Positions 1-8,562 of a DNA stretch of 64,000 nucleotides are shown in pieces. Each line of letters starts with the position of its first letter. Position 1 is the first letter of the stretch. Location: the NCBI GenBank assembly GCA_026125895.1, contig JAHCKG010000003.1, positions 1 to 64,000 of the forward strand, written 5' to 3'. This DNA is from Pseudolabrys sp. (GTDB lineage: Bacteria; Pseudomonadota; Alphaproteobacteria; Rhizobiales; Xanthobacteraceae). A program made the translations under genes and the position numbers. The notes under the pieces are model-generated. The model was not told the origin of the DNA. It did not search any database and saw only the letters and a list, made by a program, of their open reading frames with translations.

Positions 1-261
1 GTCGGCATGGGCGTGATGCCGCTGAACTTCGAGGAAGGCACGTCGTGGCAGTCGCTCGGCCTCAAGGGCGACGAGAAGGTCACGATCCGCGGCCTCGAGG
101 GCGACCTCAAGCCGCGCCAGAAGCTGACCGCCGAGATCACGATGGGCGACGGCAGCGTCAAGAAGGTGCCGCTGATCTGCCGCATCGACACGCTGGATGA
201 GCTCGAATACTTCCGCTCGGGCGGCATTCTGCAATACGTGCTGCGCCATCTGGCGGCGTAA
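1..261 (+). CDS. acnA: Aconitate hydratase, C-terminal fragment (5' end outside window)
   Basis: This is the last 86 codons of a reading frame that is open at the window edge and stops with TAA at 259-261. The translated end (GVMPLNFEEGTSWQSLGL, then a GDGSVKKVPL strand and the ending RSGGILQYVLRHLAA) is characteristic of the swivelling C-terminal domain of AcnA/IRP1-type aconitases, which interconvert citrate and isocitrate in the TCA cycle. The [4Fe-4S] cysteines lie upstream and cannot be checked. A hairpin terminator follows directly. The window also carries mdh, sucCDAB and lpd, so several TCA enzymes lie within about 23 kb. Confidence 0.93.
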   Translation, partial: VGMGVMPLNFEEGTSWQSLGLKGDEKVTIRGLEGDLKPRQKLTAEITMGDGSVKKVPLICRIDTLDELEYFRSGGILQYVLRHLAA

Positions 262-288
262 AATCCTTAACCCGCATCGGCTAAACGT

Positions 289-322
289 CACCCGCCCCTC
301 ACCGCGAAGTGAGTGGCGGGTG
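289..322 (+). terminator. Hairpin terminator of acnA
   Basis: A 14-base arm (289-302) pairs with 309-322 with a single mismatch around a 6-base loop. The downstream run ATTTACTTTTC is T-rich but interrupted. It sits 27 bases after the acnA stop, so it probably ends that transcript. Confidence 0.7.
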
Positions 323-395
323 ATTTACTTTTCACCCATATAATGGCCTCGGGTCCGACCGGGGGGTGGAACGCCCGGATCGTGGATTTTGTGCT

Positions 396-1169
396 ATGAA
401 TCTCCGCCGCCTCAGCCTGTCCCTCGCCGTTGTCTGCGCGTCGCTGGCCGTCACCGGTCCGCTGGCGGCCGGCGAACCGAAGGCCGTGGTCGAGCTGTTC
501 ACCAGCCAGGGGTGTTCGTCCTGTCCGCCGGCCGACAAGCTGCTCGGCTCGCTGGTGCATGATCCGTCCGTGATCGCGCTGAGCCTGCCCGTCGATTACT
601 GGGACTATCTCGGCTGGAAGGATACGCTGGCGCTGCACGGTCACGCCAAGCGTCAGCGCGCCTATTCGGTGGCGCGCGGCGACCGCGCCGTCTACACGCC
701 GCAGGCCGTGGTCAACGGCGTGGTGCACGCGCTCGGCAGCGACAAGAGCGCGATCGAGAAGGCCATCGCCGACAGCCGTGCGAGCGCCAAGCCGCTGACG
801 GTGCCGGTGTCGATCAAGGTGCAGGGCGACAAGGTCGTCGTCGATGTGCCGGCCGGCACGGTCGATGGCGCCGGCGCCGAGGTCTGGTTGTGCCCGGTCA
901 CCGGCAAGGTGCAGGTCACGGTCGGCCGCGGCGAGAACAGCGGCAAGGCGCTGACCTACTACAACGTTGTGCGGCGCTGGGTGAAACTCGGCACCTGGAC
1001 CGGCAAGGCCGAGAGCTTCAGCGTAGCGCTCAACGAGTTGCCGAACGCCAACCTTCCGCTCCAAGACATCGACCGGTTGGTCGTGATCGTTCAGGACGGC
1101 AGCAAGGACAAGCCCGGCCTCATGGTCGGCGCCGCGACCGTGGCGTTGAAGGACGGCCCGGCGCTCTGA
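396..1169 (+). CDS. DUF1223 family secreted thioredoxin-like protein
   Basis: The product is 257 residues. An N-terminal signal peptide (MNLRRLSLSL then a hydrophobic stretch ending near LAAGEPKA) implies export to the periplasm. The mature protein begins with a thioredoxin-like strand (VVELFTSQGC) followed by CSSCPP; Cys40 and Cys43 form a CxxC pair as in DUF1223 proteins. The family is common in alphaproteobacteria and has no firmly assigned reaction; a thiol redox role is inference from the CxxC. I chose ATG 396 over an upstream GTG at 366 because 396 places the basic n-region of the signal peptide at the start. It stands alone between two terminators. Confidence 0.85.
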   Translation: MNLRRLSLSLAVVCASLAVTGPLAAGEPKAVVELFTSQGCSSCPPADKLLGSLVHDPSVIALSLPVDYWDYLGWKDTLALHGHAKRQRAYSVARGDRAVYTPQAVVNGVVHALGSDKSAIEKAIADSRASAKPLTVPVSIKVQGDKVVVDVPAGTVDGAGAEVWLCPVTGKVQVTVGRGENSGKALTYYNVVRRWVKLGTWTGKAESFSVALNELPNANLPLQDIDRLVVIVQDGSKDKPGLMVGAATVALKDGPAL

Positions 1170-1182
1170 CGTCTCCCGTCAT

Positions 1183-1206
1183 GCTCCGCGGAAGCGGAGC
1201 TTTCTC
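1183..1206 (+). terminator. Terminator of DUF1223 gene
   Basis: GCTCCGC (1183-1189) pairs perfectly with GCGGAGC (1194-1200) around a GGAA tetraloop, followed by TTTCTC. It lies 13 bases after the stop codon. Confidence 0.65.
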
Positions 1207-1230
1207 GATCCGCACTGTCATTCCCCGCAC

Positions 1231-1262
1231 AAAAAAATCGGGCCGGCGTTGAGCCGGCCCGA
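1231..1262 (-). terminator. Strong intrinsic terminator on the minus strand
   Basis: TCGGGCCGGC (1238-1247) and GCCGGCCCGA (1253-1262) form a perfect 10-bp stem with a 5-base loop. Read on the minus strand, the stem is followed directly by seven Ts (1237-1231). No minus-strand protein gene ends here; the nearest one upstream on that strand stops at 2067, beyond DUF2794. The terminator therefore most likely serves a non-coding transcript. Confidence 0.85.
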
Positions 1263-1400
1263 AGGCATAGGGGATTGAATCGAACGCTACTCAACTTGAA
1301 CTCAGTCGGCCCGGTCCGAAGATCCCCGGGGGGCTGGGGGGCTGAGGATCCGGAGATCGAACCGGACCGGGCCTTGAGGCAACGCTCGATTTATCCCAAG
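1231..1400 (-). ncRNA. Candidate small structured RNA ending at the 1231-1262 terminator
   Basis: Reading the minus strand, nested complementary arms form one long rod. The outer pair is 1393-1397 with 1271-1275. Next, 1386-1391 pairs with 1278-1283 (6 bp perfect). An asymmetric open region follows. Then 1375-1378 pairs with 1301-1304, a perfect 11-bp stem joins 1363-1373 to 1308-1318, and 1346-1350 pairs with 1321-1325 at the tip. A perfect terminator with T7 follows. A closing stem, central bubble and long apical hairpin resemble the architecture of 6S RNA, but I do not see a sequence match I could defend, and alphaproteobacterial ssrS usually lies elsewhere. The 5' end is approximate and no clear promoter was found. 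Confidence 0.55.
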
Positions 1401-1595
1401 GGCTCATGACCGGCACTTGACCGAAATTGGGCGTTATTGTGGGAGGAATTGACGAGTTCGTGAAGGCGAACGGCCTGTTTCCCGCGGTTATCGGCGCCAT
1501 GTTGCTGGGATCAGCCTCGTGAATTCAGGGGCAAATCAGGGACTTGCCGTCGCCGCGCTGCGGCGCAATCATTGCCGCACAGGACAGGAGGCCGC

Positions 1596-1982
1596 ATGAC
1601 GTTCGGTTCCGGCGATAGCGACCAGCCGACAGGGAGCGGCGCCTTCGGGCGCGGCCCGGCCGCTCCCGCCAATTACCTCAACCAGGTCACGTTCAACCGC
1701 CGCGAACTCAATCGCATTCTCGACCTCTACGGCCGCATGGTCGCCGCCGGCGAATGGCGCGACTACGCCATCGACTTCCTCAAGGATCGTGCCGTGTTCT
1801 CGGTCTTCCGCCGCGCCTCGGAAGTGCCGTTGTACCGCATCGAGAAGAACCCGAAGCTGGCGCAGAAGCAGGGCGCCTACAGCGTCATCTCCGCGACCGG
1901 CCTCATCCTGCGCCGCGGTCCCGAACTCGACCGTGTGCTGCGCGTGCTCGACAAGCCGCAACTCGCTTTCGCGGCGGGCTGA
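1596..1982 (+). CDS. DUF2794 family protein
   Basis: A 128-residue protein without signal peptide or membrane segment. The conserved part starts near residue 30 with a QVTFNRRELNRILDLYGRMV segment, followed by AGEWRDYAIDFL and an ending that includes GAYSVISATGLILRRGPEL. This matches the small alphaproteobacterial family DUF2794, whose function is unknown. I chose ATG 1596 because AGGAG (1586-1590) sits five bases upstream; a TTG at 1572 is less likely. The gene faces the acetyltransferase at 2067 and a hairpin repeat lies between them. Confidence 0.85.
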   Translation: MTFGSGDSDQPTGSGAFGRGPAAPANYLNQVTFNRRELNRILDLYGRMVAAGEWRDYAIDFLKDRAVFSVFRRASEVPLYRIEKNPKLAQKQGAYSVISATGLILRRGPELDRVLRVLDKPQLAFAAG

Positions 1983-2012
1983 TCATCGCCTTCGCACATT
2001 CGGAGTTCTTGG

Positions 2013-2063
2013 CGTCCCGGTTCTGCGTCGCGTCATTTCATGCCGCGACGCGCCCGGGACAAG
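2013..2063. repeat. Palindromic intergenic repeat (short copy of the 13326 type)
   Basis: CGTCCCGG at the left and CCGGGACAAG at the right flank an inner GCGTCGCG/CGCGACGC stem, giving an almost continuous 15-bp hairpin. Both ends match those of the longer element at 13326-13449. It lies between convergent genes and may also act as a terminator. Confidence 0.7.
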
Positions 2064-2066
2064 TGC

Positions 2067-2588
2067 CTATGGCGCCGCCGTGTCGCCCTTGCCGAGCGGC
2101 AACTGCATCTGCACGGTGTCGAGCCAGCGGCCGAACTTGTAGCCCACCGCCTTGAACACGCCGGCGTCGCGGAAGCCGCAGGATCTGTGCAGCCCGATCG
2201 AGCCGGCCTGCGCCGAATCGCCGATCACCGCCATCATCTGCCGGAAGCCGGCCTGTGCGGCGAGGCGAATCAGCTCCTGCATCAGCGCCTTGCCGATGCC
2301 GCGCTTGTGCATCGCCGGGTCGATGTAGATCGAATCCTCGACGGTGAAACGATAGGCCGGGCGCTCGCGGAACGGTCCGGCATAGGCGTAGCCGGCGACT
2401 TTGCCGTCGATCTCGGCGACGATGTAGGGGAACGGTCCGCTGCGCAGTTTCTCGTAGCGGCGCAGCATTTCCGCTTCGCCCGGTGGCTCGAGCTCGAAGG
2501 TCGCGGTGCCTGTTTCGACCGCGTGCGCGTAGATGCGGGCGATCGCCGGGATATCGGCGGGCGTGGTCGGGCGGATCGACAGGGTCAT
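2067..2588 (-). CDS. GNAT N-acetyltransferase, phosphinothricin acetyltransferase-like
   Basis: A 173-residue single-domain GNAT enzyme using acetyl-CoA. The start SIRPTTPADIPAIARIYAHA, then TFELEPP, the EDSIYIDPAMHKRGIGKALM segment (acetyl-CoA pyrophosphate loop R-G-I-G-K-A) and the SIGLHRSCGFRDAGVF segment follow the order of the Pat/Bar/YncA branch. These enzymes acetylate small amines such as phosphinothricin or methionine sulfone; the actual substrate here cannot be read from sequence. It is monocistronic and convergent with DUF2794. Confidence 0.88.
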   Translation of the reverse strand: MTLSIRPTTPADIPAIARIYAHAVETGTATFELEPPGEAEMLRRYEKLRSGPFPYIVAEIDGKVAGYAYAGPFRERPAYRFTVEDSIYIDPAMHKRGIGKALMQELIRLAAQAGFRQMMAVIGDSAQAGSIGLHRSCGFRDAGVFKAVGYKFGRWLDTVQMQLPLGKGDTAAP

Positions 2589-2713
2589 GGGACTGGCTTC
2601 TTGGGAACAACGTGGCCGGATGGATCATGGGAAGCGATATCAGTCATCAAAGAATATCGCTGGATCGAACGGCGTCCAGTCGCGTCCAATAGGGTGCCCC
2701 CGGGAGAAAATGC

Positions 2714-3349
2714 ATGCTCACGCTCTACTACGCCACCGACACCTGCGCGCTGGCTTCGCATATCGCGCTCAAGGATGCCGGCGCCGGCTATCGCCTGCAC
2801 CGCATCGATTTCGCCAGGGCGCAGCAGCGCTCCGACGACTATCTGGCGCTCAATCCGAAGGGCCGCGTGCCGGCCTTGGCGACGCCCGAGGGCATCCTCA
2901 CCGAGACGCCGGCCATCCTCGCCTATATCGCGCAGGCCTATCCGCAGGCCGGCCTGGCGCCGGCGGATCCGTTCCGCTTCGCCAAGGTGCAGGAGTTCAA
3001 CTCCTATCTGTGCTCGACGCTGCACGTCGCGCACGCCCACCGCATGCGCGGCTATCGCTGGGCCGACGACGAAGCGGCGATCGAGGCGATGAAGCGCAAG
3101 GTGCCGCAGTCGGTGAGCGCCTGCTACGACTACGTCGAGAGCCAGATCGTCGGTCTGTGGGTGATGGGCGGCGAATACACGATTGCCGATGCCTACCTGT
3201 TCACGGTGGCGCAATGGCTCGAAGGCGACGGCGTCGATCCGGCGCGCTATCCCAAGGTCGTGGCGCACCGCGCCCGCATGGCGGCGCGGCCCAACGTGGC
3301 GGCCGCGATCGCGGAAGAGTTCGCGCTCAAGGCAGAAAAGTCGGCATGA
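2714..3349 (+). CDS. Glutathione S-transferase family protein
   Basis: A 211-residue cytosolic protein with an N-terminal thioredoxin-like domain (about 1-80) and an all-helical C-terminal domain. The start LTLYYATDTCALASHIAL places Cys11 where beta-class bacterial GSTs have their catalytic cysteine, and NPKGRVPAL provides the cis-proline loop that binds glutathione. GGEYTIADAYLF is the usual C-terminal motif with a buried Asp. It probably conjugates or reduces electrophiles with glutathione; the substrate is unknown. GGGAGA lies just upstream of ATG 2714. The gene ends at a shared bidirectional terminator. Confidence 0.88.
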   Translation: MLTLYYATDTCALASHIALKDAGAGYRLHRIDFARAQQRSDDYLALNPKGRVPALATPEGILTETPAILAYIAQAYPQAGLAPADPFRFAKVQEFNSYLCSTLHVAHAHRMRGYRWADDEAAIEAMKRKVPQSVSACYDYVESQIVGLWVMGGEYTIADAYLFTVAQWLEGDGVDPARYPKVVAHRARMAARPNVAAAIAEEFALKAEKSA

Positions 3350-3353
3350 AAAA

Positions 3354-3380
3354 AACGCCCCGGCTTTGGGCCGGGGCGTT
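3354..3380. terminator. Bidirectional terminator between GST and Bax-inhibitor-1 genes
   Basis: AACGCCCCGGC (3354-3364) pairs perfectly with 3370-3380. On the minus strand the stem is followed by a run of Ts (complement of the A run at 3349-3355); on the plus strand by CGATTTG. It serves two convergent genes. Confidence 0.88.
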
Positions 3381-3419
3381 CGATTTGAGTACCTGGTTCC
3401 GTTCGTTAGTGGCGGCGCG

Positions 3420-4175
3420 TTAGCGCCGATCGCCTAAGAAGCGCAGCATGAACAGGAACAGGTTGATGAAGTCGAGGTAGAGCGTCAGCGCGCCCATGAC
3501 CGACTTGCGGCCGGCGATGGTGCCGTCATCGTTGACGTCGTACATCTCCTTGATCTTCTGGGTATCCCAGGCGGTGAGGCCGGCGAAGATCAGGACGCCG
3601 ATCGCCGAGATGGCGAAGTCGAGGCCCGAACTCTTGAGGAAGATGTTGACGATCATCGCCAGGATCAGGCCGAACAGGCCCATGATCAGGAACGAGCCGA
3701 TCGGCGACAGGTCACGCTGCGTGGTGTAGCCGTACAGGCTCAACGCGCCGAACGACGCCGCCGAGATGAAGAAGGTGCGGGCGATCGAAGCGTGGGTGTA
3801 GGTCAGGAACACCGACGACAGCATGACGCCGAGCAGCGCCGCGTAGACCATGAACAGGCCGAGCGCCGTTGCCGGCTGCATCGCGTGCACCCTGAAGCTC
3901 AGGAAGAACACGATGCCCAGCGTCGCGAGGAACAGTACGATCATGACGGGGCCGCCGTAGATCGTCTGGCCGAACGAGGTCAGCGCGAGCTGGCCGGCGC
4001 CGGTGGTCTGCACCGCGGCGTTGAAGGTCAACCAGCTGACGACGCCGGTCAGAGCGACGCCGGCCGCCATGTAGTTGTAAACGCGGAGCATGTAGGCGCG
4101 CAGGCCCGCATCGATCTCCGCGGTGCGCGTGGCGAAGCCGCCGCGGGCCGCTACGTTACGGTCGAAATCCGACAT
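3420..4175 (-). CDS. Bax inhibitor-1/YccA family membrane protein
   Basis: A 251-residue integral membrane protein with about seven hydrophobic segments starting near residue 30 (RVYNYMAAGVALTGVVSWLT) and ending with TLYLDFINLFLFMLRFLG. The order of segments, GLTAWDTQKIKEMY in the last third and the C-terminal LYLDFINLFL motif are typical of BI-1 (TMBIM/YccA) proteins, pH-sensitive calcium-leak channels or regulators of membrane proteases. I chose ATG 4175 (MSDFDRNVAARGG), preceded by AGAGGGA; a frame extending to 4325 carries an unlikely Arg/Ser-rich leader. It ends at the 3354-3380 terminator. Confidence 0.92.
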   Translation of the reverse strand: MSDFDRNVAARGGFATRTAEIDAGLRAYMLRVYNYMAAGVALTGVVSWLTFNAAVQTTGAGQLALTSFGQTIYGGPVMIVLFLATLGIVFFLSFRVHAMQPATALGLFMVYAALLGVMLSSVFLTYTHASIARTFFISAASFGALSLYGYTTQRDLSPIGSFLIMGLFGLILAMIVNIFLKSSGLDFAISAIGVLIFAGLTAWDTQKIKEMYDVNDDGTIAGRKSVMGALTLYLDFINLFLFMLRFLGDRR

Positions 4176-7865: not shown

Positions 7866-8562
7866 GAATTTCTTTCCGAAACGATCGCCGTCATATGGGG
7901 AATTTCTCCGGCCAGTCCAGCAGGCTGCGGCGCTATTACTCATATTTGCCGGCATTTTAGGCCCGATTGCGGCTCTGGCCGCTGACAAACCGGTGAAGAT
8001 CGTCGTTCTCGGCGATTCCCTGAGCGCCGGCTACGGCCTCAATGTGCAGGATGCTTTTCCGAGCAAGCTGCAGGCGGCGCTCAAGGCCAAGGGCTACGCC
8101 ACGGAAATGATCAATGCCGGCGTGTCCGGCGATACCGCGACCGGCGGGCTCGAGCGCTTCGACTGGTCGGTGCCGCCCGATGCCGACGCGGTCATCCTCG
8201 AACTCGGCGCCAACGACGCGCTGCGCGGCGTCAGCCCCGATGTCACCCGCGCGGCGCTCGAGCAGATCCTCACCAAGATCGATGCGCGCAAGCTGCCGGT
8301 TCTGCTCGCCGGCATGAAGTCGCCGCCCAACATGGGGCCGGACTATGTGGCGAAGTTCGACGCCATGTATCCCGAACTGGCGAAGAAGCACGGCGCGATC
8401 TTCTATCCGTTCTTTCTCGATGGCGTTGCCGCCAACGGCCAGCTCAACCAGCGCGACGGCATGCATCCCAATCCGCAAGGGGTCGATGTCATCGTGAAGA
8501 ATATTCTGCCGCAGGTGGAAGAGTTGATTGCCAAGGCGAAGGCCACGGCCAAGGCCGGTTGA
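7864..8562 (+). CDS. tesA: GDSL arylesterase / lysophospholipase TesA
   Basis: A 232-residue SGNH hydrolase exported to the periplasm. A hydrophobic signal segment spans residues 21-40. Block I is VVLGDSLSAGYGL with nucleophile Ser52, block II GVSGDTATGG, block III LGANDALRG and block V DGMHPNPQG with the catalytic Asp/His, so all four SGNH landmarks are intact. TesA-type enzymes cleave thioesters, lysophospholipids and aryl esters. AAGG lies seven bases before ATG 7864. It is divergent from the YbbA/YbbP ABC genes with a two-base overlap of start codons, so each promoter must lie inside the other gene's 5' coding region. Confidence 0.93.
   Translation: MNFFPKRSPSYGEFLRPVQQAAALLLIFAGILGPIAALAADKPVKIVVLGDSLSAGYGLNVQDAFPSKLQAALKAKGYATEMINAGVSGDTATGGLERFDWSVPPDADAVILELGANDALRGVSPDVTRAALEQILTKIDARKLPVLLAGMKSPPNMGPDYVAKFDAMYPELAKKHGAIFYPFFLDGVAANGQLNQRDGMHPNPQGVDVIVKNILPQVEELIAKAKATAKAG

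Follow-up and report, generated by a model that had tools for sequence, protein, structure and literature searches.

Three small RNAs are the closest described counterparts of the element treated here, namely BjrC174, PmaR and CC3664, which databases and the literature regard as distinct RNAs of limited lineages and which Rfam lists as three families (RF02355, RF02497 and RF01530) without a clan. BjrC174 has been described as an abundant sRNA of B. japonicum, and of the validated starts for which no promoter motif was mapped, its own had the strongest promoter activity (PMC4842269). PmaR, formerly C10 and represented in Rfam by Atu_C10 (RF02497), comes from Agrobacterium tumefaciens, where it regulates murB, cheD, ampC and other mRNAs in a loop-dependent manner; by the authors' account the loop engages target mRNAs in vivo and in vitro, and after exchange of CCCA58–61 for UUUU the targets tested were no longer regulated (PMC6234868). 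Its level peaks in stationary phase and minimal medium; in the latter there is more of the RNA at pH 5.5 than at neutral pH, and under virulence-mimicking conditions there is less (PMC6234868). According to Borgmann et al. it occurs only in Agrobacterium and in a single Rhizobium strain (PMC6234868), a statement repeated in a review (PMC7308464). Two sRNAs from Caulobacter have to be mentioned as well. GsrN resembles our element in its C-rich loop and, as predicted for ours, in pairing with a G-rich tract, in its case in the katG leader, but it is SigT-dependent and outside C. crescentus it typically lies near general stress response genes and not near DUF2794 (PMC5869019); ChvR is an sRNA activated by ChvGI (PMC9731502). 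A literature search with most subscription papers outside its scope found no paper that joins BjrC174, CC3664/Atu_C10, PmaR, ChvI and DUF2794; the co-mentions retrieved with the term 'pmar' concerned the plasmid pMAR2xT7 and were discarded.

The window, i.e. the whole stretch of 64,000 nucleotides from Pseudolabrys sp. that was analysed, carries the following features near its start (coordinates are those of the window):

396–1169, plus strand: DUF1223 (PF06764) gene, the convergent neighbour (Pfam, 217.9 bits)
1231–1384, minus strand: predicted sRNA transcript of about 154 nt, from a start at about 1384 to the T-run (3' end from the terminator, 5' end by inference)
1238–1262, minus strand: intrinsic terminator stem-loop with T7 at 1231–1237 (computed; pairing kept in relatives)
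1308–1373, minus strand: conserved rod with a 12-bp basal stem, a 9-bp upper stem and a C-rich loop (fold, model match, covariation)
1330–1349, minus strand: single-stranded loop of 20 nt, AUCCUCAGCCCCCCAGCCCC, presumed to pair with targets (fold, alignments)
1335–1338, minus strand: CCCA, the counterpart of PmaR nt 58–61 (position and PmaR numbering)
1391–1396, minus strand: putative -10-like element GGATAA (placed relative to the repeats as in PmaR)
1408–1432, minus strand: three GYC direct repeats 11 bp apart, a candidate ChvI operator (pattern and published consensus)
1596–1982, plus strand: DUF2794 (PF10984) gene, the divergent neighbour (Pfam, 139.8 bits)

The plus-strand fragment at 1–261 has no Pfam match and was named by sight as what we take to be the end of an aconitase-like gene. 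An earlier note, made from the sequence alone, had proposed an undescribed small RNA on the minus strand near this gene, which it called acnA, and had suggested a search with cmscan. This search gave a full-length match to RF02355 (BjrC174) at 1234–1464 on the minus strand (model positions 1–201, 64.1 bits, gathering score 45), the only match above gathering score within the 64-kb window. The note was thus right about a small RNA in this place and on this strand, but wrong in taking it for an undescribed one. Nothing essential differs between it and BjrC174, and we regard it as almost certainly a real sRNA gene of this known, little-studied family. The match to RF02355 begins some 80 nt ahead of the predicted start and seems to take in promoter DNA. 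When 100 genomes of the GTDB family, presumably Xanthobacteraceae, were sampled, 86 had RF02355 at E ≤ 0.001 (83 above cut-off), and the loci fetched with it carry DUF2794 in 51/51 and DUF1223 in 47/51 cases. Three weaker matches were found: AbcR/suhB (RF00519) with 23.1 bits on 1224–1289, the terminator part, below its gathering score of 41; CC3664 (RF01530) with 19.5 bits, below 60; and Atu_C10 (RF02497) with 20.8 bits, also below 60, so the window is not filed under RF02497. The weak matches of Atu_C10 and CC3664 lie on the loop and suggested a relation of both to the window element.

The terminator of the earlier note is as it was described, with 10 pairs between 1238–1247 and 1253–1262 followed by T7 on the minus strand, and among the reading frames of at least 50 aa no minus-strand gene ends at it; two short minus-strand frames of 69 aa (1291–1500) and 67 aa (1091–1294) overlap the element. 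The note had nested five sets of complementary arms into one rod, of which the three that were checked (1271–1275/1393–1397, 1278–1283/1386–1391 and 1308–1318/1363–1373) are perfect complements. Folding of 1225–1400 on the minus strand gave a minimum free energy of -91 kcal/mol, whereas shuffled sequences averaged -63.2 (z -6.76, none of 200 shuffles as low), and the rod at 1308–1373 matches our covariance model with 78.2 bits, the window sequence belonging to the training set of this model. The 11-bp stem 1308–1318/1363–1373 is perfect as claimed but not apical, as it forms part of the base of the conserved rod; above it the fold places the 9-bp stem 1350–1358/1321–1329 and the C-rich loop. 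This loop, absent from the earlier note, forms the tip of the rod and is the most conserved part of the element: it contains AGCCCCC(C)AGCCCC, and no stretch of the alignments with so little or no variation is longer than AGCCCCC...AGCCCC. At 1270–1279 on the minus strand, between rod and terminator, lies a further C-rich single-stranded patch, UUCAAUCCCC, which recurs in similar form in many loci of Xanthobacteraceae and might serve as a second site of pairing.

Covariation in the DUF1223–DUF2794 gap, which the earlier note had named as a check, was indeed found. RNAalifold on the MAFFT alignment of the 50 loci keeps the rod and the terminator, with double-sided changes in 17 of 24 consensus pairs, and standard pairs fill 497/512 of the cells with letters in the 11-bp stem and 409/458 in the terminator. 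The outer closing stem with the open middle, which the note had made part of its rod, is not conserved and pairs in 132/229 and 89/266 cells of the same loci; its 5' arm overlaps the likely -10 element. A further alignment of 30 sequences with other orders included (A6) has 95.4% of cells paired and changes on both sides in 16/17 pairs, 0/500 shuffles being as high on all five measures and slid partners dropping to 20–56%, figures which lean towards the covariance model because A6 was fitted to it. Alignment A5 was discarded because it contained antisense matches.

In order to compare the element with PmaR we collected the loci with the Atu_C10 core pattern in named genomes, which gave 26 loci from Agrobacterium, Rhizobium and Rhizobiales. 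DUF2794 is divergent from the C-rich loop in all 26 and DUF1223 lies beyond in 24, the exceptions being L152 (loop pattern at 7973–7993 of 8000) and L160 (loop pattern at 223–243). The window shares this PmaR locus, as its element sits beside a divergent DUF2794 gene with DUF1223 on the other side. When the loop G is set as nt 62, the published PmaR nucleotides 47, 58–61, 62, 81 and 19 are reproduced in 6/6 sequences and nt 18 in 5/6. PmaR and the window element thus agree in locus, direction, the rod with its C-rich loop, the CCCA-G core and the phased GYC repeats upstream, and both have a spoon shape in which CCCA precedes the loop G in a single-stranded C-rich loop; they differ in the loop flank, GACCCUUUA in PmaR versus UCCUC in the window. 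As the published numbering fits the extracted Agrobacterium sequences, we inferred the 5' end at about 1384 by matching the PmaR promoter geometry. DUF2794 itself keeps its divergent orientation to the sRNA in most loci tested. Its predicted fold (AlphaFold, pLDDT 85.7) has no PDB match at E ≤ 0.001, and the idea of DUF2794 as an RNA-binding partner of the sRNA was dropped with this result, despite the good model.

When the window is anchored on the PmaR start, the -35 region falls in a block upstream of the rod, GCCCAATTTCGGTCAAG, that contains G-Y-C three times at 11-bp steps. In the window the triplets are GCC (1432–1430), GTC (1421–1419) and GTC (1410–1408), only the first being GCC. Five of the six outer GYC letters are invariant in the alignment of 50 sequences; the exception is the first letter of the second triplet, a G in at least 90%. 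The pattern GYC-N8-GYC-N8-GYC is found in 45/51 Xanthobacteraceae loci, 29/46 loci of other families of the order, 14/22 of other orders and 24/26 Agrobacterium-type loci, whereas other spacings (3–7 and 9–15) reach at most 6, 1, 1 and 0 in the same four groups. This amounts to 112 of 145 loci, many of which are close relatives, against 0.34% in shuffles and a background of 11/1162 tiles in the window; the remaining 33 loci have no such triple. The exact GCC-N8-GCC occurs upstream in 32/51, 30/46, 14/22 and 0/26 loci of these groups. Furthermore, of 17 copies whose fetched flank shows no DUF2794, 12 retain the triple, and therefore it goes with the RNA gene; in L112, one of these 17, a DUF2794 gene is nevertheless present at a distance of about 1.5 kb. 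By eye, two loci (L214 and L270) show a ladder of four GYC triplets at 11-bp steps. A pattern scan of 1–3500 found no sigma-70 site and no EcfG motif was seen by eye. A CATAAT-like block at about 1436–1441 had been considered as the -10 element and was dropped because by the PmaR numbering transcription would begin some 50 nt farther downstream. In Xanthobacteraceae such a block follows an imperfect dyad TnACG-N4-CGTnA upstream of the GYC repeats (1450–1463 on the minus strand of the window), which might be part of the divergent DUF2794 promoter or act as a second operator.

Which regulator might read these repeats? The source genome encodes a ChvG-like kinase with the sensor domains PF13755/PF13756, for which ChvG is the best NCBIfam match (466.8 bits, below the cut-off of 740) and which adjoins an OmpR-type regulator and an HPr kinase domain. 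From this position and its general likeness the regulator is presumably ChvI; no NCBIfam ChvI model was among the 25 matches listed for it. The reported ChvI consensus of S. meliloti is N-GCC-N8-GCC, after Ratib 2018, and that of Caulobacter differs (TTGC-N3-GCAA) (PMC9731502). The window repeat GCC-N8-GTC-N8-GTC at 1432–1408 is alike in spacing and differs in two triplets. We favour, with some reserve, that the sRNA is transcribed under the envelope-stress response regulator ChvI. There is an appreciable if lesser chance that the same sRNA answers to another OmpR-type regulator or to an unknown activator reading the 11-bp GYC repeats, as OmpR-family regulators generally use direct repeats with a period of about one helical turn (PMC9275681), the BjrC174 promoter was strong although no known motif was mapped in it, and the 300 bases upstream of the chvI-like gene of the source genome contain neither a GYC triple nor GCC-N8-GCC. 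Against this stand the agreement of GCC-N8-GCC with the S. meliloti ChvI consensus (PMC9731502), the acid response of PmaR, which fits ChvI, and the reported site of CenR, TGA-N8-TGA and not GCC (PMC9275681). The fall of PmaR under virulence-mimicking conditions does not obviously fit activation by acid alone. ChvG-ChvI activation has been linked to beta-lactam resistance in A. tumefaciens in the title of PMC9731437, in the main text of which a term search returned no PmaR, sRNA or ampC.

To follow the element beyond Xanthobacteraceae we examined DUF2794 loci of other families and orders, where a rod with a C-rich tip often lies antisense to and upstream of DUF2794; many DUF2794 loci of the class have no C-rich rod beside the gene. 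The bare C-rich pattern gave 66 matches in 135 class genomes against 62 for the reversed control (summed by eye), and therefore the motif alone proves nothing and only place and rod do. A covariance model (R1) built from 21 Xanthobacteraceae sequences and one other (L053), without Agrobacterium, was run on 58 loci of 224 kb in total and matched 23 times at E ≤ 1, mostly at places first located by synteny or the C-rich pattern. Extra matches were one in L171 (E 0.54), an antisense one in L062 (E 0.82) and a tandem second copy in L068. R1 recovered 9 of the 10 Agrobacterium-type loci supplied at the expected place (E 0.0037–0.056 in 224 kb), the missed one, L152, ending 7 bases past the loop pattern, and in a further test a model built without Agrobacterium found the element in place in 4/4. 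No R1 match was obtained in L061, L065, L066, L079 and L132 despite C-rich-tip hairpins there; L066 and L079 are doubtful and were left out of the support, and the genome of L066 has its better copy of the element on another contig (L145). A second model, R2, built from A6, found the rod at E ≤ 0.05 in 96/150 genomes of the order and 19/279 of the class, counts that include the genome of the window and some training genomes and in which the filters lose weak matches. The matches in the order fall in 41 family labels (counted by eye). Neighbour information plays no part in R2, yet of 54 matched loci tested 38 have a divergent DUF2794 gene at most 1.5 kb away (25/29 in the order, 13/25 in the class), some order loci being from the window's family and several class loci copies in the same genomes; in further loci of the order the figure is 16/20. 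Genomes of one family (label f91) carry several copies (L217, L218, L221 and L230), with two in tandem beside DUF2794 (1240–1301 and 1047–1109 of L068) and others elsewhere. The Rfam models themselves were too narrow for this wider sample: Atu_C10 matched 0/150 genomes, with no control match either, and CC3664 matched 0/289, while the control Caulobacter vibrioides was matched.

CC3664 is connected by one locus. In genome G307 (L073) its model gave a full-length match below threshold (30.1 bits, E 0.44 in that scan, gathering score 60), which sits exactly at the DUF2794 site and has CCUGAACAGCCCCCCCAGCCCC as loop region, and through this match CC3664 would join the family. The Rfam thresholds place the window outside both RF02497 and RF01530; what we propose is common descent and like function. 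BjrC174, PmaR and CC3664 are probably one sRNA family, a merger that rests on synteny, shape, loop and promoter and not on the Rfam models, because Atu_C10 and CC3664 are below gathering score. PmaR is then probably the local form of an old gene, in contradiction to its published restriction. It is unlikely that the three are unrelated and settled independently in a favourable intergenic region, with convergent C-rich loops. The low scores of the loci with one another's Rfam models, the restricted range given by Borgmann et al. (PMC6234868) and the occurrence of C-rich loops in other sRNAs such as GsrN (PMC5869019) would agree with such an independent origin, but most loci of all groups have the same neighbour and orientation, a similar rod base (the G-rich CCCGG), the loop core and the GYC-phased promoter, the models lacking Agrobacterium locate the sRNA in 9/10 and 4/4 cases, and the R2 matches spread over the family labels of the order. 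Going one step further, we lean only slightly towards the view that BjrC174, PmaR and CC3664 are one ancient alphaproteobacterial sRNA that provides the ChvG-ChvI envelope-stress response with its conserved RNA arm.

Taken together, the reading we consider likely is that of a PmaR-like base-pairing sRNA of the BjrC174 family whose transcription is probably under ChvI. ChvI or a like regulator, bound to the three phased GYC repeats over the -35 region, would turn on minus-strand transcription from about 1384, which would end at the terminator at 1231–1262. A stiff hairpin would hold up the C-rich loop, and this loop could pair with G-rich stretches of several mRNAs and thereby alter their stability or translation. 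The pairing step has been demonstrated for PmaR only, the apparent ortholog in Agrobacterium (PMC6234868), and by analogy to it a trans-acting, base-pairing mode of action is very likely here. In 20 genomes the 11-mer complement of the loop, GGGGGCTGGGG, was matched 37 times and its reversed control 76 times (summed by eye), and no shared target was seen. This rarity of GGGGGCTGGGG in related genomes, where part of the matches is the RNA gene itself, may reflect avoidance of strong off-target pairing, although the control differs in dinucleotides.

The earlier note had also seen a 6S-like shape. Given the rod shape and a C-rich loop that hardly varies, a protein with a preference for C might bind to it, and the element might accordingly be a 6S-like RNA or a decoy for RNA polymerase, Rho or another C-binding protein that does not pair with mRNAs. 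This is very doubtful, as among the cmscan hits with E ≤ 10 there is no 6S RNA (RF00013) at 1000–1700, the 6S RNA of the source genome is located on another contig (G000:C30:35756–35909, 82.2 bits), and the PmaR loop, by its authors' account, engages mRNAs in vivo and in vitro (PMC6234868). Chance hairpins instead of a gene are hardly conceivable, for although GC-rich genomes often have long hairpins near DUF2794, this reading is already refuted by the covariation, and the Rfam match, the promoter repeats and the synteny speak against it as well.

In summary, the element itself is an ordinary finding, a member of a known Rfam family; new are the probable merger of three families, the contradiction to a published restriction and the proposal of a testable regulator. 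If the three are one gene, targets, structure probing and expression data from one model would carry over to the other two, and if they are one ancient ChvI-linked sRNA, PmaR would therefore be no recent invention of Agrobacterium. If ChvI drives the sRNA, ChvG-ChvI would gain a widespread sRNA arm beside ChvR of Caulobacter, and the published phenotypes of ChvI and PmaR (cell wall, motility and beta-lactam tolerance) would gain a direct, testable link. PmaR could then tie ChvI to the cell-wall and beta-lactam phenotypes post-transcriptionally.
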